Positions 40,837 through 51,710 of a stretch of DNA of 51,710 nucleotides are shown here, in pieces. Numbering within the stretch: the first letter of the stretch is position 1; each line of letters starts with the position of its first letter. The position numbers were made by a program, and so were the translations under genes. The stretch spans positions 1 to 51,710 of the forward strand of contig MTND01000002.1 of NCBI GenBank assembly GCA_002010305.1, read 5' to 3'. The notes under the pieces were generated by a model. The model ran no database searches. It had not been told where the DNA came from and worked only from the letters and a program-made list of their open reading frames with translations. The stretch comes from Archaeoglobi archaeon JdFR-42 (GTDB lineage Archaea > Halobacteriota > Archaeoglobi > Archaeoglobales > JdFR-42).

Positions 40837-41928
40837 ATGAGTTGGAAAATTAAACTGGAGCTGATGATTGTAATTCTGGTTTCTGTAATAGTAGCGGTAA
40901 ATGGATTTACCCCAGCCATATCGGTTACCATCTTTCCAGATGATCCTGTTAAGGATGATATAGTTGAAGCCTATATTCAGGGAACTGGGTATGAGAAATA
41001 TGTCTTGGTAGAGTGGTATGCAGAAGGAAAACTCAAAAAATCATCATATCTATATTTTAAAGGATCAAATTTAATCAAAGACAGTTTTCAGGTTGATTTA
41101 TCTGGCTCTTGGGTAGTCCGAGCCATTTCTTTTGATTACTATGATCAGTTCATATTTTCTAAAGAAGTCGGGTTTATAGTGCTAACCCCCTCTGGTGAAA
41201 CGATAACTACGGGGAATGTGACTCTACCCCCTCCATCAATACCTAAAAAACCCTTCTTGCCTGTACTGACACCTACTCCAGTTCCAGAGACAACACCGGT
41301 ACAAGAGGAAGAAGAGGTCAATGAAACTCAGTCACAGGTTAATGAAAGTGAATCACAGGTTAATGAGAGTGAGTTGAATGTCACCCCCTCTCAACCCTCA
41401 ATTGAAATTCCAACCTTTACGTATATGGACGTCTCGTACCCTGAAGAAGTAAGGCCTGGAGAAACTGTTAATGTTAAAATATCTTTTAAGATAAATTTTG
41501 AGACTGAAAAGTCGATAATATCAGCCATCGTGCCAGAGGGATGGAACGCAGAGTCTGTTTCTGCTTCAATCAGCAATTCCACTGGTAATGCAACTCTTAA
41601 AATCGATATACCTGAAGGGGTGGAAGATGGGTCCTATTCTGTGGTTCTTGTAATCTTCACTCCTGTACTGAAGCGAGAGCAAACTCTTCTTTTTACTGTT
41701 AATGCCAGTAGGACTGAGGGGGTAACTTTAGAAGAAAAAATATCGCAAAAGACCGGAGGAAACGAAACAGAGAAGCCAATCTCGTCTGGAACTGTGGAAC
41801 AGAATGAAAGCAAGAAAGAAGAGCCATCCAGTTATTCAGGAGAACAGACACCAGGATTTGAGTTATCCATTGCACTGATAGCCCTTGTGTTGATTGCCAT
41901 TACAAGAGCTATCAGGTTAAAGAAGTAG
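40837..41928 (+). CDS. Secreted Ig-like surface protein with PGF-CTERM anchor
   Basis: This is a 363-residue exported protein. Signal peptide: residues 1-22. Two beta-sandwich-like parts (about 25-125 and 185-285) are joined by a proline/threonine-rich, acidic linker with the repeat SQVNESE. The C terminus reads TPGF followed by a hydrophobic segment and a basic end (RAIRLKK), the plan of PGF-CTERM tails cut and lipid-anchored by archaeosortases; no archaeosortase is in the window. Numerous N-x-S/T sequons suggest N-glycosylation. A TATA box (GATTTAAAG, about 40812-40820) is 25 bases before ATG 40837, so the transcript is leaderless. It stands at the start of the surface island, and could be a scaffold or S-layer-associated protein; the binding partner is unknown. 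Confidence 0.8.
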   Translation: MSWKIKLELMIVILVSVIVAVNGFTPAISVTIFPDDPVKDDIVEAYIQGTGYEKYVLVEWYAEGKLKKSSYLYFKGSNLIKDSFQVDLSGSWVVRAISFDYYDQFIFSKEVGFIVLTPSGETITTGNVTLPPPSIPKKPFLPVLTPTPVPETTPVQEEEEVNETQSQVNESESQVNESELNVTPSQPSIEIPTFTYMDVSYPEEVRPGETVNVKISFKINFETEKSIISAIVPEGWNAESVSASISNSTGNATLKIDIPEGVEDGSYSVVLVIFTPVLKREQTLLFTVNASRTEGVTLEEKISQKTGGNETEKPISSGTVEQNESKKEEPSSYSGEQTPGFELSIALIALVLIAITRAIRLKK

Positions 41929-42198: not shown

Positions 42199-43404
42199 TC
42201 ATCTCTTTCTCTTTATTAGAAAAGCGGTTAACAGCAGAGATATGATGATTGGTGCAATTCCCACTGGTGTTTTTACTGTTTCTTTAAAGTGCTCTTCTTC
42301 GGGTGGAGCATAAGGCAAAGTTATGTTATATTCAACACTCTGTAACTCTCCCTTGATCTCTGGTTTTCCGGTTACAATCCATAAAGTAGTGTTATTGAAA
42401 ATAGCGGACTGGTATACAACAATTGCATTGCCGTTTTGATCAAAAAAGAGGCTTTTCTGATCACATTTGAAATTATATGGGTTCTCAAGGCTGTTAATGT
42501 ATTCAATATTTCTGGAAAGTCTCTCAGGTCTTGTCCAATGAACACCATCTGGTGATCCCATTATGTAAATTTCTTCATTGCCGTTTATGGTGGATGTGAA
42601 GGCAATCCATAGGTTTCCGTCACTATCTGTTTTAGCATCATTGTACAAGCTAAAATTGAATGGAGGCATGTTTGTCAGCCTAGCCGCTTTTGTCCACTTA
42701 ACTCCATCGTTACTGGGGGCTATAAACAGATCATGGTTGTTCATGAGTTCAGTGATGGAATAATTTCCAGTGTATTTGGCATACTGTAACCAGTATTTCC
42801 CATCTACGTCAATTAGTTTACCAAATATAGCATCAGGAGGAATTGCTTTAATTTCTTCACTCCATCGGTCCCCATCATTGGAGTATCTTAGAACAATCAT
42901 GGAACCTTCTTTCCCTATGTTTTTACTGTAAACAACCCAGAATTTCCCTCTCGAATCTTGGTATATGTAGGGATACCAGTCTATGGTTTCATTGCTACCT
43001 GCTATTGGCACGGGATCACTCCAGTGAATTCCCTCTTTGCTTGTGGTGTACATCACATCGTAATCAAACCCGAAAAAAGCATGGGGATTTATAATCTTAT
43101 GACGAGTGAAAACAAGCCTGAAAATACCATTTTGGTCTATTATCATCCACGGATGATAGTCGTTTTCTCTCGTTACAGGGATTTTTAATGGTTTATTCCA
43201 TGTTTCCAGATCCGTAGAGTTCATTGTGTATATGCCATCAGACTTTACGAACACCAACCAGTATGTCCCACTAGAATCCTGAGCCAACACAGGATATTCT
43301 CCCTCTCCTATCATTTTTGGCTCGGTCCATGCCACAACATCGCCTGAGAGTATTAGAAGCAACAATATTACCAGCAATATTAGTATAGATGTCTTCAGAT
43401 TCAT
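42199..43404 (-). CDS. Surface-anchored BNR/sialidase-like beta-propeller protein
   Basis: This is a 401-residue exported protein with an N-terminal signal peptide, a repeat domain of about 340 residues, and a C-terminal membrane segment (TPVGIAPIIISLLLTAFLIKRKR). The repeats carry four Asp-box-like motifs, S-x-D/E-G-x-x-W, seen at SKEGIHW, SNDGDRW, SNDGVKW and SPDGVHW, so a six- or seven-bladed propeller is likely. Such Asp boxes occur in sialidases, but no catalytic residues can be identified; binding or scaffolding at the surface is more likely than glycan hydrolysis. A TATA-like CTTTAAATAA lies about 25 bases before the ATG on the minus strand, so it is leaderless. Its expression is divergent from the giant cytochrome at 43807. 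Confidence 0.75.
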   Translation of the reverse strand: MNLKTSILILLVILLLLILSGDVVAWTEPKMIGEGEYPVLAQDSSGTYWLVFVKSDGIYTMNSTDLETWNKPLKIPVTRENDYHPWMIIDQNGIFRLVFTRHKIINPHAFFGFDYDVMYTTSKEGIHWSDPVPIAGSNETIDWYPYIYQDSRGKFWVVYSKNIGKEGSMIVLRYSNDGDRWSEEIKAIPPDAIFGKLIDVDGKYWLQYAKYTGNYSITELMNNHDLFIAPSNDGVKWTKAARLTNMPPFNFSLYNDAKTDSDGNLWIAFTSTINGNEEIYIMGSPDGVHWTRPERLSRNIEYINSLENPYNFKCDQKSLFFDQNGNAIVVYQSAIFNNTTLWIVTGKPEIKGELQSVEYNITLPYAPPEEEHFKETVKTPVGIAPIIISLLLTAFLIKRKR

Positions 43405-43806: not shown

Positions 43807-46800
43807 ATGTTTAATTTCCCGAAAAGGGGACCTATTTTAGTGTTATTGTTAGTTGTAGGTATCATTCTTATCTCTGTTTGTGGAACCGTCTCTGCAGAAC
43901 CAGTAATGAAACTGAACCTTTCTAGGCTTGTCATTCTTGACGATCCAAATAATGGGCAAGCTGGATCGGGTTTTGTGACGCCTCCTAGGAATTGGGGGAC
44001 TGACTACTGGAATGGAGAAGCAACAACAGTGAAAGGTTATGTGCTGATTGTCAATGAAAGTGGTGGAATTTCTGGAGTTCAAGTAACGTTCACTGTTAAA
44101 AAACCCGATGGGAGCACAGCGACTACGATAAATGCTGTTACAAACTCTTCAGGGATCGCATCGTTTAGTTATAATTTAAATGCTAAAAACTATTATGGTA
44201 ACTGGACAGTTGAAGCATCTGCTACTGTTAACGGCCAGAATCTTGTAGATTCCAGAACATTCATGTATAACTGGTGGGGTTGTGCCAATTGTCATGGTAA
44301 AGAAACTGTAACCAAACACGGAACTTATAGTGAAAAATCACCTTACACAATGGGGTATGACTTCCACAGAAATCCACTGAAAGGAGACCATAGAAATCCA
44401 ATGCAAAATGGATTCTGTACGGCCTGCCATCAGGGTTATGATAAGATCCCTTATGATCCAAATGCATATAACGATAAAAACTACATTAAAAATACCGCAA
44501 AGACACAATATAGTGCTGACATCCATAATGGAATAAAGAAGTGTCAGGACTGTCATGTTAATGCCAATGATGGAGCCAAGAGGGCTGAAATAGCGGGGTG
44601 TTATGATACAACCGGCTGTCATGCCCAGAAGAACACCAAACTCACTGAAATTCTTACGACAACAGGCTATAGCGTGGGAGGAAACTATAGAACAATCTAC
44701 TCTCTCGACACTTCAACTAGCCAGCCCAGTAAAGCTCACACACCGTCCCAAACAATTCCATGTCTTAACTGCCATGGACCAGGGCATGATATATGGAAAC
44801 CAGTCGTTTCAGGCACCTCAAACACTTACACCGAAGATTCCCAATGCCTAACTTGTCACGTAAACCAGGGTAAGCACTCTCCAGACAATCCGGTTTATTG
44901 TACCTCCTGTCACTCACAGGATGCCCACGTAATAGGAATTCTGGACAAGACTGCCGGAACACAGCCCACCTATACAACACTCGGTTCAGCTAACGCTGTG
45001 ACGAAGGACGATTGTACCTCATGTCATACTTCAGGGAGCATATCCAACTTTTTCAATGCCCTCACCACTTATGATTCTGCAGCCTATACTAACAACTACC
45101 AGCCTCAGACCGACAGCTTCGGTTACAGTGTAGCGATGCATAATGGAACTGTCAACTGTACAGTCTGTCATGACAACACTGACTTCCATGCAATAACTTT
45201 CCTTAACCATACAGCTCAATATACAACAAATAAATCCCAGGCAGTTGGATGTGAAGATTGTCACGTACAAGGAACAAATGACAGTGTTAAAACGTTCATA
45301 CAGGGTTTAGGGCTAAATCCACCTCAGGTTAATGCAAAGCATAACAATTCTGTACCCTGTGATGTCTGCCATTCTCCTAGCCCTCATGGAGGTGCGAGAT
45401 TCCTGGGTTCAGATCTCTCAACCTATACAACTAACAAGGCTCTGGCTGTTAAGTGTATGGACTGTCATGCGAATTCTGGAGCTTCAGGTAAACAGTACAC
45501 AACAAGAACAGGCACCTACACTATGTACCCACCATATATTGGTAGTTATGCCTTTCAGCATGGAAATGCTACCTGGGAGGGACAAAATTGGGGCAATTAC
45601 TGGACTAAGGCTGATGACAATGCTGCATGTTTATACTGCCATGGAAATGGAAATAATGTTGAGGAAATCCATAGCCAGAGTGCTTTAGGGAGGATTAGTT
45701 ACATTGCGGATGGGGCTACAGACCTTTCTGGGCAATGGTGTGCTAACTGTCACGTCTCTTCTGCCATTAACCCCAGTTATAACGGTTCAGCTTATTCTCC
45801 TGCAACTCCACCACTAAATGATGTAAATAACACTGGAATGAATAGTAACTTTGCCGGAAATAAATGGTTGGATCATTCATCCTTCGTCTCTTCAGATTAC
45901 ACCGATAGTTCATGTTATGGGTGTCATGCCAATACCACCGAGACGCCAAACAATAACCTGACACTTTTTGTACATAATGTTGAAGAAGGGGTTCCAGGAG
46001 GGCCCGATTGTGTCTCCTGCCACGATATTGGAGGTACAGCTCCGAGACATGTTGATGTAAGTACCATGAAACAGGGTATACATGCCACCCTTAATAGTGG
46101 GGCAACCAATAACACTACCCTAACGGATCCTGTGGATAAAGCATGCTGGGCATGTCATGGAGATGGAACGGAACCGGATCAGCACCCAGTAAACTATAAA
46201 TCACCTAAGCAATGCGAAGACTGTCATACTGGTACAACTCAATTTAATGCCCTTCTTGTAGCCGAACATTACTATTCCGGGCAGGATCTTGTGGTTAATG
46301 CAACCTGTCAGGATTGTCATAGCAAGAGTGAGATGCTTAACACTAACAGTGATCCAGATGCTGGTTCGACAAATGCAACCATAAGTCACTATGGAAAGCC
46401 AAGAAGTGACCTCGTTCTGAATATTAATGGGGATACCGTTACAGACTGCTATTACTGCCATCAGAATGCGACAACAGTTTTTGCTTCGGTGATGCAAAAC
46501 ACAAATCATACTTATATGTATAATCACAGTGACAGTTCCAATTCGCCAAGATGCTGGAGCTGTCACAGTGTTGGTAGGATTCATGACCAAAACCATGTCA
46601 AACCTCAGATCAGCAACAGTCTATGCCTTGGATGCCATCAAAGCGGAATAGGTAATATTGGGCCGATACCCACAGCCCATAACGGAACAATGAACTGTTA
46701 CTCCTGTCATATGGATAAAAATGATACCGCCTACAACAGTGTGACTGCACAGATCCACGGAATCAAGTTTATCGACTCTGATGGTACCTATACCAGATGG

Positions 46801-49242
46801 GATAAGACAAATGCTGCAAATTGTGTTGATTGTCATATAAATCAAAATACCACTTCAGCATTGACTACTTGGAATTCAGGATACGTCCCCACACAGATTC
46901 CTTCGCTAACTCACAGTGATGATCCTTTCGCTGGAAAGAAGTGGGGCAACTACTGGGATAACACTTCAGCTGTGACAGCATGCTATTATTGCCATCAGAA
47001 TGGAATTCATAAGAATAAGAACGGTCTCCTTGGTAACGTAACTTTGGTTAAAGGATCCAACAGTTATAATCAGTCTATAACAAATGGCACATGGTGTGCT
47101 AACTGCCATTACACTAATGCAAATGAGTATAATGGCACTGCTTTAAGTCCAGTTCCACCACGGATTGATGTTGATGAGGGAACAGCTACTGATGGTACAG
47201 CGTGGTTCAATCATACAGATGTTATTTCAGGCTCCTATACTGATGACATGTGTAAGAGCTGTCACGGTGGGTTAGCTCAATCTGCCACCTTGATAAGGGA
47301 TTTCGTGCATGCGGTAGGAGAAGGGTCTGGAAGCGGATGTATTGCCTGCCACGAGTCTTATTCTGGAAATCTAGGCTTTAATAATTCGAGCTTTGGTGCC
47401 CATGCCAATGTGAACACGACTGGTGGACTTGGTAACCTAACAGACAACGATTGTAAGACCTGCCATTATGACACCAGTAACATGTTTAATTCGGGATGGA
47501 CTGTAAGCACTTATGGATGTGAGAACTGCCATCAGGGCTCATGGCCTTCATCAGTGGATTCAACACCTCCGAGTATAGGCACAACATTCCTGCATGGGAG
47601 TAATGATTGCTATTCTTGTCATCTTGCCGATAAACAACAGCCATATACTCAAGGAGGTTATCATGTTAACTTCTCCACTCCATTCGGGGCGGTTAAAGAG
47701 CCAGGATGGCAAGGGTGGACTGCTGGAGTCTCGACACAATGTTTTGACTGTCACTTTACACACAGTAAAGCAGATGAACCGTTTAATGCACCGGGAATAA
47801 GCAGATATATGGCCACGAAATATTCTGGCTGTGGTGGAAGTAACTGTCACGGATCTGGAACGATTCATAATACAGATGCACCATTGTATTATACACCTCC
47901 TACGGTTTCTGTAACTCTTAACAGAACAGCAGTAATGGCGGGAGATGCGATAGGGGTGTATGCAGTCGGAAATGGTAATGCTGGGCAGATCTATAATGCT
48001 TCGTATCAGATAATAGATGTCAATGGAAATATTGTTCTCTCTAATCCTCTTTCTCCAGATGACGGAGAGTTTGGTGGAGTGGCAAGTGGACTCCCGGGGC
48101 CTGGAATGGAAAACTTCACCTTTACCCTGAATACCTCGGTTTTAACTCCTGGCGACTATACGCTTAAAGTCATTGTCGAGAAAGACACAGGAGTGTCTGG
48201 ATATGACACAGCTACTTTCAGAGTTGGATCAGAGGGGAGTATCACAGCAAATCTCGATATGGAGGCTTGGAGTGCAGGAAACACAACTTTGGTTAACTGG
48301 GCTCTGTATGGATCTGCGACACTTGAACAGAGTACCAATGCATATACTGGAAATTATTCTGCTAAACTCATTGTGACAGACGGGACGACATCGTACTTGA
48401 AGAGTATGAATATTTCAGTAGAGTCGTCTAAAGAGTATAGGGTAATGGTATGGATAAATGGTAGTGTGACCTACTCTGCTTTAAGTGTTGAGCAATACAA
48501 CAGTTCAACGAGCACAAAACTTCAAGAAACTCATAAAATCGTGCTTACCGGTAACACATCAGGTTGGGTGAGCATTGGAACAGATCTCACCACTTTTGCT
48601 AATGCTGATAATATTACTGTGAAGTTATGGGTTATTGGAAATGGCACAGTCTATTTCGATGCGGTTAGTGTAGTTCCAAAACCGTATGGGAAGAGCGACG
48701 TGGTAAATGGAGGATTCGAAGACGACTGGACATGGTCTACCGGAACCAAATACTTCATCAGAGAAGAACGCCTTCATACTCTTTATGAAATGGTGAAAGG
48801 ATGGGAACCCAAGGACATGACGGCAAGTGAGATGGAGTTAAATACCACTAAAGCTGTTGGAACAAGGTCTGCGGGAATCAACGGATCAGGATACTGGAGT
48901 TCTCCGTATAAAGACCCAACGTATCATAAACAGGCTGCAAGTTATGCAAAGAAATTTGGACTTGATTATTCAGAAGGAACCAATGTCACAATTGAATTCA
49001 AAGTATACTCGGATAGAATGAATGACTTTGCAGGTCTTGGCCTGGTATTCTGGGACACATCCACCTCAGGGCCTTCAGAAGCAACTTATAAGGTGGGAAT
49101 AATCGATACTACGACTGACTGGGCTACAGCGGTAGTGTCAGTTCCAATGCCAATAGGGAAGAACTTCCTCCAGCTCAAATTGTTGAGCCAGACAGACAAT
49201 CATGTGCTGTTCGATGAAGTTAAGGCGTACGAGAGCATTTAA
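43807..49242 (+). CDS. Giant multiheme c-type cytochrome with Ig-like and jelly-roll-like domains
   Basis: This 1811-residue extracellular protein has a signal peptide (residues 1-31, ending VSA-EP). A Big/invasin-like Ig domain follows at about 55-145. A long heme region from residue 159 to 1342 holds 31 CxxCH motifs by my count, plus CX5CH at 265-272 and CX4CH near 1342. Two or more beta-sandwich, carbohydrate-binding-like domains follow (about 1365-1480, 1480-1620, 1630-1811), with the VNGGFEDDW pattern of such modules. Many histidines can serve as distal ligands, and many N-x-S/T sites suggest glycosylation. There is no C-terminal membrane segment or recognisable S-layer domain, so it is probably held at the surface by its glycan-binding-like domains or is free. 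The likely role is long-range extracellular electron transfer. Its heme count is in the range of the large cytochromes of methane- and alkane-oxidising archaea. Confidence 0.92.
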   Translation: MFNFPKRGPILVLLLVVGIILISVCGTVSAEPVMKLNLSRLVILDDPNNGQAGSGFVTPPRNWGTDYWNGEATTVKGYVLIVNESGGISGVQVTFTVKKPDGSTATTINAVTNSSGIASFSYNLNAKNYYGNWTVEASATVNGQNLVDSRTFMYNWWGCANCHGKETVTKHGTYSEKSPYTMGYDFHRNPLKGDHRNPMQNGFCTACHQGYDKIPYDPNAYNDKNYIKNTAKTQYSADIHNGIKKCQDCHVNANDGAKRAEIAGCYDTTGCHAQKNTKLTEILTTTGYSVGGNYRTIYSLDTSTSQPSKAHTPSQTIPCLNCHGPGHDIWKPVVSGTSNTYTEDSQCLTCHVNQGKHSPDNPVYCTSCHSQDAHVIGILDKTAGTQPTYTTLGSANAVTKDDCTSCHTSGSISNFFNALTTYDSAAYTNNYQPQTDSFGYSVAMHNGTVNCTVCHDNTDFHAITFLNHTAQYTTNKSQAVGCEDCHVQGTNDSVKTFIQGLGLNPPQVNAKHNNSVPCDVCHSPSPHGGARFLGSDLSTYTTNKALAVKCMDCHANSGASGKQYTTRTGTYTMYPPYIGSYAFQHGNATWEGQNWGNYWTKADDNAACLYCHGNGNNVEEIHSQSALGRISYIADGATDLSGQWCANCHVSSAINPSYNGSAYSPATPPLNDVNNTGMNSNFAGNKWLDHSSFVSSDYTDSSCYGCHANTTETPNNNLTLFVHNVEEGVPGGPDCVSCHDIGGTAPRHVDVSTMKQGIHATLNSGATNNTTLTDPVDKACWACHGDGTEPDQHPVNYKSPKQCEDCHTGTTQFNALLVAEHYYSGQDLVVNATCQDCHSKSEMLNTNSDPDAGSTNATISHYGKPRSDLVLNINGDTVTDCYYCHQNATTVFASVMQNTNHTYMYNHSDSSNSPRCWSCHSVGRIHDQNHVKPQISNSLCLGCHQSGIGNIGPIPTAHNGTMNCYSCHMDKNDTAYNSVTAQIHGIKFIDSDGTYTRWDKTNAANCVDCHINQNTTSALTTWNSGYVPTQIPSLTHSDDPFAGKKWGNYWDNTSAVTACYYCHQNGIHKNKNGLLGNVTLVKGSNSYNQSITNGTWCANCHYTNANEYNGTALSPVPPRIDVDEGTATDGTAWFNHTDVISGSYTDDMCKSCHGGLAQSATLIRDFVHAVGEGSGSGCIACHESYSGNLGFNNSSFGAHANVNTTGGLGNLTDNDCKTCHYDTSNMFNSGWTVSTYGCENCHQGSWPSSVDSTPPSIGTTFLHGSNDCYSCHLADKQQPYTQGGYHVNFSTPFGAVKEPGWQGWTAGVSTQCFDCHFTHSKADEPFNAPGISRYMATKYSGCGGSNCHGSGTIHNTDAPLYYTPPTVSVTLNRTAVMAGDAIGVYAVGNGNAGQIYNASYQIIDVNGNIVLSNPLSPDDGEFGGVASGLPGPGMENFTFTLNTSVLTPGDYTLKVIVEKDTGVSGYDTATFRVGSEGSITANLDMEAWSAGNTTLVNWALYGSATLEQSTNAYTGNYSAKLIVTDGTTSYLKSMNISVESSKEYRVMVWINGSVTYSALSVEQYNSSTSTKLQETHKIVLTGNTSGWVSIGTDLTTFANADNITVKLWVIGNGTVYFDAVSVVPKPYGKSDVVNGGFEDDWTWSTGTKYFIREERLHTLYEMVKGWEPKDMTASEMELNTTKAVGTRSAGINGSGYWSSPYKDPTYHKQAASYAKKFGLDYSEGTNVTIEFKVYSDRMNDFAGLGLVFWDTSTSGPSEATYKVGIIDTTTDWATAVVSVPMPIGKNFLQLKLLSQTDNHVLFDEVKAYESI
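45571..46024 (+). repeat. First copy of a four-heme module in the giant cytochrome
   Basis: Residues 589-739 contain four CxxCH motifs in the order WGNYW-CLYCH, WCANCH, CYGCH, CVSCH. The same order and flanking patterns (WGNYW, WCANCH, a proline-rich stretch, WxxH, SYTD/SDYTD, FVHxVxEG) recur about 450 residues later. It is an internal duplication at the protein level. Confidence 0.8.
46928..47354 (+). repeat. Second copy of the four-heme module in the giant cytochrome
   Basis: Residues 1041-1182 repeat the module: KKWGNYW-CYYCH, WCANCH, CKSCH, CIACH, with matching flanking patterns (FNHTDVISGSYTDDM, FVHAVGEG). The copies differ in spacing and in most non-motif positions, so the duplication is old. 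Confidence 0.8.
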
Positions 49243-49662
49243 TAATTCAGCCAATTCTTTATATTTTCTCCTTTCTTTTTTGCATATAAAGTTGGAACTT
49301 CTCTTCAAACCATTGGAGTAGGTTATTGAATCTTTTAGGCAGGCTAAGAAATGAGTAGGATGTGTATTGAAATTCCAATACGAATTTATTCAATCTGATT
49401 TTAGCATTTTGAATGAAACTTATAATTATGCATTCAATGCTTACCTCTAAGGATAATGCTCGATAATTTAATCTATTTATTTCTAGTTTTTACATAGTCG
49501 TTAACCAGACTTTTTATTAATTTACATTTTATGGAAACAATTTTTTCAAAAGGTTTTAAAAAGAAAAATTGTTATAAATCTCTTTTTGTGAATTGATTTT
49601 CCGAAAGTTTTTTAAATAGTTCGAATCTGATAGATTAATGGAAATAATTTTGGAGGGATGAA
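49243..49662. other. 420-base spacer between giant and first tetraheme cytochromes
   Basis: T-rich tracts at 49258-49280 after the stop codon probably terminate the giant cytochrome transcript. No convincing gene lies in the rest. A TATA-like TTTTTTAAATAG (49607-49618) and GGAGGG (49652-49657) belong to the next gene, giving it its own promoter. Confidence 0.5.
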
Positions 49663-50382
49663 ATGAGAAATGCAGGAAGACTGGCCTTGTTAATTGTGGT
49701 GGTACTGGCTCTAGGCTTTTTAGTTTTGCCAAGCACAGTATCACTCTTCGCAGGACAGCATGACTGGTATGACATCGATACAGCGGGAAACCAGATTCCA
49801 TGCCAGAAATGCCATGCTGACATCTATGTTGAGCTGAACGGCAGTCCATATCACAAAGGATGGGGTACGTCTAATACGACTGCTGATGAGGGCGACTGTG
49901 TGGCATGTCATCAGGCAAATACCAGTATAACATATGCGAATGGTACCACTAACCAGCCCGGAACTGGAGCTCATGCCGCTGCAACGATAGCATGTATGTA
50001 CTGCCATGGGGATTCAACTACTGGAGCTCCGGTAGCAGGTGGTTTTGGTTTGAGTAATCTTGCAAACGATACTGGTACATATGCGGCCCATTTTGACTTT
50101 GTGAGTACAGCAAATTCCAGCAGTACTATCTTACTGGACGAAAACGAAGCCTGTATAGCCTGTCACACCCATGTTGCGGTTAAGATAAACTTCACTCACT
50201 ACAAGGCTCTGGAGTTCGATGTCACATGGAATACCACAAGCAGTGCTTATGAGACTAGCAACTATGCAATAAATACATCCACAGGTACTGTATACACCAT
50301 CTGGGGTAACGCTAACGGAGATGGAGGATTGCTCAATAACAGTACAACCACAACAACATGGGGAACCGGAACTTGGCCATAA
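49663..50382 (+). CDS. Tetraheme cytochrome c, ECN-like extracellular filament subunit (1)
   Basis: This is a 239-residue exported tetraheme cytochrome. A signal/membrane segment covers residues 6-28, followed by the conserved VSLFAGQHDWYDI. The four CxxCH motifs start at residues 47, 79, 111 and 164 (CQKCH, CVACH, CMYCH, CIACH), and further histidines (PYHKG, GAHAA, AAHFD, CHTHV) can serve as distal ligands. This layout, short signal segment, four hemes, sparse secondary structure and a Ser/Thr-rich tail, is that of the archaeal extracellular cytochrome nanowire subunits described from Archaeoglobus veneficus and Pyrobaculum. The tail has many N-x-S/T sites. Length and the conserved KCHADIYxELN and APVAGGFG stretches match the next cytochrome. 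The likely role is a polymerising electron conduit; polymerisation itself is inferred. Ribosome binding site GGAGGG supports ATG 49663. Confidence 0.85.
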   Translation: MRNAGRLALLIVVVLALGFLVLPSTVSLFAGQHDWYDIDTAGNQIPCQKCHADIYVELNGSPYHKGWGTSNTTADEGDCVACHQANTSITYANGTTNQPGTGAHAAATIACMYCHGDSTTGAPVAGGFGLSNLANDTGTYAAHFDFVSTANSSSTILLDENEACIACHTHVAVKINFTHYKALEFDVTWNTTSSAYETSNYAINTSTGTVYTIWGNANGDGGLLNNSTTTTTWGTGTWP

Positions 50383-50387
50383 TCTAA

Positions 50388-50410
50388 TTTTTTTTTATTT
50401 TATTTCATTT
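50388..50410 (+). terminator. T-rich terminator after the first tetraheme cytochrome
   Basis: A run of nine T (50388-50396) followed by ATTTTATTTC lies six bases after the stop codon. It is the strongest T-tract in the window and separates this gene from the next cytochrome, so the abundant subunit would be made from its own short message. Confidence 0.65.
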
Positions 50411-50592
50411 CTTTAATTTCTCTTTAATTTCTGATTTTTGGGAAGATAAGGTCTCTATAAGATGATCTGGTTGGTTTAACTGTCGTCCTTTTTCGTGGCA
50501 TATCATTTATGGGCATCTTATCTCTATAAATCTTCAGAATTTCAACATCGCACAGTATATTTTACACTTTGAGGAGACATATTTCAGTCTTT

Positions 50593-50620
50593 TTATGGGA
50601 TAAGGGCAGTAATCCCATAA
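50593..50620. promoter_or_regulatory. Perfect 9-base inverted repeat upstream of second tetraheme cytochrome
   Basis: TTATGGGAT (50593-50601) and ATCCCATAA (50612-50620) are perfect reverse complements around a ten-base spacer. It may be a hairpin in RNA or a binding site in DNA. Confidence 0.5.
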
Positions 50621-50737
50621 TGATCAGAGATTAAAGTTGGGAGACTACAGCCGAAGGACGTATAGAAAACTTTGACACCTCTCTACGTTCTGCAAACGTT
50701 AATAGTTCATCGATATTGCAAATTAGAAATTTACAAG

Positions 50738-50757
50738 TAGTCAACATACGTTGACAA
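50738..50757. promoter_or_regulatory. Palindromic operator 3 (TAGTCAAC/GTTGACAA)
   Basis: TAGTCAAC, ATAC, GTTGACAA has the same architecture as the two operators at the ABC transporter; its right arm is identical to operator 1 and the left arm differs at one base. It lies about 115 bases before the likely start of the second tetraheme cytochrome. A common dimeric regulator is inferred. Confidence 0.6.
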
Positions 50758-50870
50758 TATTGTAAATCATAGACTACAAATTGTTACCGTTAAGTGACAA
50801 TAATTTCAATTTGAGTAAAGAACTAGACAGAATACAGAAAATCTTAAAAAGAAACAATCCCAATGCTCTA

Positions 50871-51542
50871 ATGGGTAGAAGCATGACATTTGAAAAAGGC
50901 ATTTTAATAGTAATCATATTTTTCGCTTTGGGTCTATTTGTAATACCCCAGACTGTATCTCTTTTTGAAGGAGAGCATTTCTGGTATAGTATCGAAGGAG
51001 GGTATGGCAGTAAATGCCTCAAATGTCATGCTGATATTTATGAAGAGCTAAATCAAAGTGCTTATCATGATACTATAGATGGAGTGAGTGGTTTCTCCGG
51101 GAACGAGTGCTATTCCTGCCATAGAGCCAATCTAACCATCACATATGCTAACGGCTCTCTGGATCAACCTGGAAGAGAAGCTCACGCTGCTTCTAGTATT
51201 TCCTGTACTTACTGTCATTTTAATGCATCGAACCCTTTCAACGCTCCTGTTGCAGGCGGATTTGGTATGACAGGTCTTGCAAATGATACTGGAACTGAGG
51301 CAGCTCATAGAGGATTTGTATTGTCATCTGCTAATGGAAGTATATCAGGTTCTAGCCTTTTGTTAAATGCGAGTGAAGCATGTATTGCCTGCCACACTCC
51401 TGTGGAGATTACAATTAACTTTTCAGTTCCAACTCAGTTTGACATAACTGTCCGAAACTCGGTGTCTGGGTCGAATTCTCAGTGGAATGTCGAATCGATT
51501 GTTGCCACTAACCTCACAGTCTTCTTGGAGGAAAAGAAATGA
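50871..51542 (+). CDS. Tetraheme cytochrome c, ECN-like extracellular filament subunit (2)
   Basis: This is a 223-residue paralogue of the first tetraheme cytochrome. A membrane/signal segment near residues 9-31 is followed by VSLFEGEHFWYSI. The four CxxCH motifs start at 49, 80, 112 and 171 (CLKCH, CYSCH, CTYCH, CIACH), spacing nearly as in the first. Shared blocks are KCHADIYEELN, TITYANGSLDQPG, APVAGGFGMTGLANDTGT and EACIACHT. It lacks the Gly/Thr-rich tail of the first. The frame is open to TTG 50781, but ATG 50871 or 50883 fits the family; a TATA-like CTTAAAAAG 25 bases before 50871 suggests a leaderless start. The third cytochrome overlaps its stop, so the two are cotranslated and may form one complex. 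Confidence 0.82.
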   Translation: MGRSMTFEKGILIVIIFFALGLFVIPQTVSLFEGEHFWYSIEGGYGSKCLKCHADIYEELNQSAYHDTIDGVSGFSGNECYSCHRANLTITYANGSLDQPGREAHAASSISCTYCHFNASNPFNAPVAGGFGMTGLANDTGTEAAHRGFVLSSANGSISGSSLLLNASEACIACHTPVEITINFSVPTQFDITVRNSVSGSNSQWNVESIVATNLTVFLEEKK

Positions 51543-51710
51543 ATCCAAGAATACTTCTGGCTCTGATAGTAGTAGTAATTTTCTTTCTGATGATTGATAC
51601 GAACATTACATCCATCTTCACAGCCTCCCACTCCCTCACCAACATCTCCCAGCCAGGCAACCAGATCTCGTGTGAAACCTGCCACAGCCAGATCCAGAGA
51701 GAACTGAACA
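51539..51710 (+). CDS. Third cytochrome of the cluster, partial (runs off window end)
   Basis: This frame starts at ATG 51539, which overlaps the stop of the second tetraheme cytochrome (ATGA), and is open to the end of the window (57 codons). A membrane/signal segment (LLALIVVVIFFLMI) is followed by TSIFTASHSL, NISQPGNQ, and the first heme motif SCETCHSQIQRELN. The pattern parallels the N terminus of the two cytochromes upstream (signal segment, aromatic/His motif, CxxCH at about residue 47, then ELN). The rest of the gene is beyond base 51710, so heme number is unknown. Confidence 0.8.
   Translation, partial: MNPRILLALIVVVIFFLMIDTNITSIFTASHSLTNISQPGNQISCETCHSQIQRELN

Follow-up and report, generated by a model that had tools for sequence, protein, structure and literature searches.

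At the end of the contig analysed here lies an uncoupled tetraheme cytochrome gene (P0001) for a subunit of the type found in the extracellular cytochrome filament of Archaeoglobus veneficus (AvECN; UniProt F2KMU8, PDB 8E5G). It is followed by a second tetraheme gene (P0002), which is the coupled partner of a long gene. In the reading that we favour, and to which we give close to an even chance, P0001 is the major subunit of an AvECN-type filament, and P0002 and the long protein are a co-translated accessory pair that would form the end of the filament or a connector. The observations behind this reading are homology, the heme and histidine pattern, the coupling of the two genes, the two domains of the long protein and near-identical N-domain DNA. 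We propose a wider form more tentatively, as somewhat less probable: AvECN-type filaments would have a genetically encoded end piece, i.e., a double-subunit protein co-translated with a tetraheme partner, its docking half kept identical by gene conversion and its outer half exchanged to match different donors or acceptors of electrons. Such an end piece would be shared by lineages ranging from Fe(III)-reducing Archaeoglobales to archaea that oxidise methane or alkanes. To our knowledge, the structures solved so far depict the repeating interior of cytochrome filaments rather than their beginnings, their ends or their links to the cell or an acceptor. A co-translated partner that is conserved and half subunit-like is a concrete candidate for such an end. 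The idea is testable in the culturable species A. veneficus, F. placidus, G. ahangari and G. acetivorans. Since ANME-1, Syntrophoarchaeum and Ethanoperedens have this pair too, it is also relevant to the passage of electrons from methane- and alkane-oxidising archaea to partner bacteria.

The array and its contig

The genome under study is a fragmented draft (42 contigs, 2.15 Mb); by kinship it shares the order, though not the family, of Archaeoglobus and Geoglobus. The window, i.e., the whole stretch of DNA that was analysed, is its contig C18 (51,710 bp). Features of the array are collected in Table 1. P0001 and P0002 are separated by 500 bases and therefore need not share one operon. A scan for sigma-70 promoters, whose consensus is inapplicable to archaea, gave nothing clearly above chance. 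The giant multiheme cytochrome that the earlier note had placed beside the array is indeed there. Relatives of it adjoin such arrays in three other genomes (G005, G004 and G022; 35-58% identity over most of the length), and we infer a possible redox partnership with the array proteins. Two more proteins adjoin the giant cytochrome (40837-41928 on the + strand and 42199-43404 on the - strand); each has a signal segment and, at the C-terminus, a hydrophobic one, so that they look like cell-surface proteins.

Table 1. Features of the cytochrome array in the window (contig C18).
Feature	Position	Strand	Remarks
Giant multiheme cytochrome	43807..49242	+	1811 aa, 31 CXXCH; neighbour, upstream of P0001
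TTTAAATA, possible archaeal TATA box	49611..49618	+	45 nt before P0001; weak (1 match vs 0.55 expected by chance)
P0001, class I tetraheme cytochrome, AvECN-type filament subunit by homology	49663..50382	+	239 aa
P0002, class II tetraheme cytochrome coupled to the third gene	50883..51542	+	219 aa; alternative in-frame start at 50871
GGAGG, Shine-Dalgarno-like site in the last P0002 codons	51527..51531	+	up to full GGAGGTGA at the same position in other pairs
Front of the long class III gene	51539..51710	+	57 codons; gene cut by the contig end; 4-nt overlap with the P0002 stop

P0001 and P0002 are the two complete tetraheme cytochromes that had been described as lying head to tail, both with four CXXCH motifs and both carrying the motifs VSLFxGxH, KCHADIYxELN and APVAGGFG attributed to them. 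The heme starts given earlier agree for P0001 (47/79/111/164); for P0002 they are 45/76/108/167 when counted from the ATG at 50883, the earlier values of 49/80/112/171 being those from the in-frame ATG at 50871. With 52% identity over 193 aa (E=3e-60), the likeness of the two proteins is beyond chance. P0002 has exactly eight His, four in CXXCH motifs and four others (H32, H62, H101 and H142), and all of them align with His of P0001; judging from this alignment, the four others can serve as distal heme ligands. Four CXXCH motifs and four further conserved His are thus present in P0001 as well as in P0002.

Searched with phmmer against all PDB chains, each of the two proteins had a single significant match, 8E5G. 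P0001 aligned with it over residues 3-236 (44% identity, E=2e-47), with all eight AvECN ligand His kept in the aligned columns, and P0002 over residues 7-205 (36% identity, E=6e-30); profile A4 matched 8E5G with E=4e-63. The likeness to archaeal filament subunits for which the earlier note had suggested a profile search therefore holds near full-length for A. veneficus AvECN and does not extend to Pyrobaculum, whose filament 8E5F gave no match to P0001 or P0002 at E<=10, nor to profiles A3 and A4 at E<=1. Comparison with the bacterial OmcE, OmcS and OmcZ families gave no full-length match; the profile covered 57 positions of OmcE (7TFS, E=3e-4), a short weak match of the kind that heme motifs alone can give. 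AlphaFold2 monomers without hemes were modelled for P0002 (24 sequences) and for the Archaeoglobus sp. JdFR-37 long protein (28 sequences), and the best Foldseek match of these low-confidence models (pLDDT 56-57, TM-scores 0.24-0.44) was 8E5G (E=6e-6 and 1e-5). P0001 resembles AvECN in its four CXXCH motifs, ligand His, hydrophobic N-terminal segment and type of C-terminus (its tail is ..WGNxxGxG..WP), and P0002 has the same heme and His pattern but another C-terminal end and the coupling to the long gene. From sequence, we consider it near certain that both belong to the AvECN family, and as family members they would be expected to polymerise.

A review (PMC12203936) states that the distal His of three of the four AvECN hemes comes from another subunit, so that the ends of an AvECN filament have open ligand sites. 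The same arrangement bears on the proposal that nothing polymerises here, i.e., that the proteins are monomeric cell-surface tetraheme shuttles from a family that merely includes one filament former. Small multiheme cytochromes commonly shuttle, and to judge from paper titles there is continuing dispute over what cytochrome filaments do physiologically, but the hemes of a monomer would be ligand-short if a neighbour normally supplies three of the four distal ligands. Given also the identity of P0001 along a proven filament subunit and the conservation of all eight ligand His, we regard monomeric shuttles as quite improbable.

A short gene coupled to a long gene

The earlier note had filed the third gene as a third tetraheme paralogue. 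This is ruled out: the gene is the truncated front of a longer, distinct protein that carries SIFTASH in place of VSLFxGxH and has about eight heme sites (8-10 across the family) in two units. It starts at 51539, inside the P0002 stop (ATGA), and thereby overlaps P0002 by 4 bases. The final 100 bases of C18 recur both as the beginning of contig C10 and as the end of C14, and a further 60 bases of C10 recur at the end of C7; because these contig ends repeat, at least two long genes of the JdFR-42 genome have about 417 bp of identical DNA. Candidate continuations of the third gene are therefore found on C10 (L064) or C7 (L066), and synteny with G005 favours C10, where an AvECN-like N-domain with four hemes is followed by a second domain (CXXCH, CX3CH, CXXCH, CXXCK). 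The long gene of the same genome that has its front on C14 lacks a short gene just upstream.

We define as class I the uncoupled tetraheme genes, as class II the tetraheme genes coupled to a long gene, and as class III the long genes. Alignments of the short (A1) and long (A2) proteins were used for profile searches of 394 genomes of the phylum. The long profile had matches in 57 of them and the short profile in 60; the long-profile count includes fragments as well as short genes, because the N-domain is common to both. Some genomes (e.g., G026) have short genes and no long gene detected by these profiles. In a scan of GTDB contigs, pairs were hosted by Archaeoglobales, Methanophagales (ANME-1), Syntrophoarchaeum and Methanoperedenaceae; GB37, one of the last group, is in our view Ethanoperedens. 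G011 carries the AvECN sequence and is thus A. veneficus or nearly so, the cytochrome list of G006 is that of G. ahangari, and G004 and G005 are presumably F. placidus and G. acetivorans.

Of the complete long genes in other genomes (39 distinct ones), 37 have a same-strand tetraheme gene directly upstream; L125 and the second such gene in L058 are unpaired. The overlap between short and long gene is 4 nt in 29 of the 39 and 1 nt in 2. At least 6 nt of the Shine-Dalgarno consensus GGAGGTGATC were matched before the long start in 28 of 37 pairs, compared to 50 of 2220 control windows, and because of these matches the C-terminal E-V-K of the paired short proteins is largely a ribosome-binding site for the gene that follows. 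All EVK-type tails (39/39) belong to short genes paired with a long gene and nearly all GN-type tails (33/35) to unpaired ones; most unpaired short genes, AvECN and P0001 included, end in ..GNxxGxG..WP. Since the EVK codons largely spell the Shine-Dalgarno site, the association of this tail with pairing is partly trivial, and we dropped the tail as a protein-level marker of class II.

A filament with different subunits (major, minor or tip) had been suggested from the window; what stands of this is the distinction of uncoupled class I genes from coupled class II and III genes, which recurs in many genomes, and the classes may share a filament or provide its tip. In Methanoperedenaceae GB37 (L155:3801-11259, with L155:5848-11259 viewed in detail), four near-identical class I-like tetraheme genes are followed by a class II and then a class III gene. 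The literature passages searched, the founding AvECN paper not among them, contain no description that we could find of the coupled pair, of the two-domain structure or of the shared N-domains. The pair may be new; the genes themselves are already catalogued.

The long protein and a possible filament end

Long proteins have 370-470 aa and 8-10 hemes, and consist of an AvECN-like N-domain fused to a second domain, probably a diverged AvECN-like one; they are thus two units rather than a single tetraheme unit of about 210-290 aa. Compared to AvECN, the N-domain is related and is the only part that matches 8E5G, but the second domain and the number of heme sites differ and the whole is not an AvECN subunit. 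The alignments show all subunit ligand His kept in class II and in the class III N-domain. The second domain opens with a conserved KH where the subunit has its N-terminal His, and follows the pattern His, CXXCH, His, CXXCH, His, CXXCH, CXXC(H/K), the fourth His being less conserved. In profile-profile comparison with the short family it scored 109 over 129 columns. This exceeds the controls (at most 69 for scrambles with fixed heme motifs, 57-78 for other families of multiheme proteins), for which reason the chain probably contains a second subunit-like unit that has diverged. This domain carries zero to two heme sites beyond those of the pattern. Past the last heme site, 36 of 37 long proteins end in a conserved tail with EP (..(S/T)EP(SG)..), which may resemble the first strand of a PEGA domain. 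A subclass has CXXCK as the last heme site, most also with CX3CH (L064:1-1098, L049:7386-8555, L050:9780-10958, L053:6169-7281, L100 and L102), possibly a Lys-ligated heme. No clear link was seen between CXXCK sites and the number of CcmF-type genes (PF01578 matches: four here, two to four in relatives).

Polymerisation, docking, an end position and a partner are what we infer from these features. More specifically, P0001 would polymerise into an extracellular cytochrome filament of the AvECN type, as its major subunit, and P0002 and the long protein would make a specialised end of that filament, either a cell-side connector or a tip. The N-domain of the long protein would mimic a filament subunit and dock through the same swap of heme-ligating His. 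The second domain would then take the place of the next subunit, so that polymerisation stops, and would pass electrons on to a further partner, which may be the adjacent giant cytochrome. Coupled amounts of a protein with a subunit-like and an altered half and of its own tetraheme partner would suit an end or connector.

The main rival to a filament end is a separate, non-filament surface complex, a fixed heterodimer of the class II and class III proteins that would take electrons from the membrane carrier pool and deliver them to the filament or to acceptors outside; the AvECN-like N-domain of class III would then reflect ancestry only. Tight translational coupling suggests a 1:1 complex, and class I genes are often distant from the pair; in A. 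veneficus, three separate loci hold AvECN and the two pairs. Against such a heterodimer, class II and the class III N-domain retain every subunit ligand His, and the bodies of class I and class II proteins interleave in the tree, as expected if mutual fit persists. We judge it rather unlikely. This interleaving also led us to reject class II as a single clade. Long N-domains fall on one side of a branch with a support of only 42, which is a point against an end piece, as are the unpaired long genes and the genomes in which the profiles detected short genes alone.

The earlier note had also raised alternate filaments. Class II proteins might form one of their own, apart from class I filaments and with class III as a regular subunit; the class II heme region is as near to AvECN as that of many class I proteins, with all ligands kept. 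A two-domain partner with a diverged second half and extra heme sites in some copies is, however, ill suited to a regular repeat, and arrays hold several class I genes but one pair (e.g., GB37), which is a point for an end piece. We give an alternate class II filament a small chance.

Long paralogues with near-identical N-domain DNA but different C-domains were found in three genomes, with exact N-domain repeats of 473 bp in G005, 250 bp in G006 and about 417 bp in the JdFR-42 genome. Blocks of tail DNA are common to AvECN and its neighbour gene in A. veneficus. The simplest account is that copies have recently exchanged particular modules (gene conversion); a possible alternative is a recent duplication in which one copy gained a new C-domain.

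Known systems and array neighbours

Related cytochromes have been reported elsewhere. MmcX of the Methanocellales archaeon Met12 is, in the passages seen (PMC11176372), a tetraheme AvECN homologue and proposed nanowire that accepts electrons on heterologous expression; those passages mention no long partner that we could find, and we liken it to the short proteins by description rather than by sequence comparison. Small multiheme cytochromes of ANME, Syntrophoarchaeum and some Archaeoglobales are catalogued, as separate cytochromes, in passages of another study (PMC9012536), which also count them among the top ANME transcripts, many being highly transcribed. Similarly, G. ahangari GAH_00504-00510 are listed as separate cytochromes in PMC4600277, with heme counts (10, 4, 9, 4, 5, 4) that are those of the L051 array. 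In one table (PMC4683180), the c-type cytochrome of Methanoperedens with the highest expression has four CXXCH motifs, an RPKM of 9148 and F. placidus Ferp_0668 as homologue; Ferp_0668 is probably one of the class I genes of L048, judging from gene order. PcECN of Pyrobaculum calidifontis (8E5F) and OmcE, OmcS and OmcZ of Geobacter would work alike, by c-hemes stacked in a protein filament.

Other genes recur beside the arrays. Directly downstream of a class I gene, L059:5084-6013 (- strand) encodes a protein of about 309 aa with relatives in L025, L027, L028, L029 and L037. An N-terminal membrane segment is followed by a surface-type domain, which we read as PGF-pre-PGF-like, and at the C-terminus by an AvECN-like heme core with four CXXCH motifs that scores 153 in profile comparison with the short family; on these features the protein is a candidate membrane-side filament base. 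Recurrent neighbours in L066 (on its own contig, C7), L048, L051, L052 and L057 are a cytochrome of 200-215 aa with 5-6 hemes and a protein of 600-680 aa with membrane segments at both ends, which in L051 has a CARDB domain. The L051 array also adjoins an S26-type signal peptidase.
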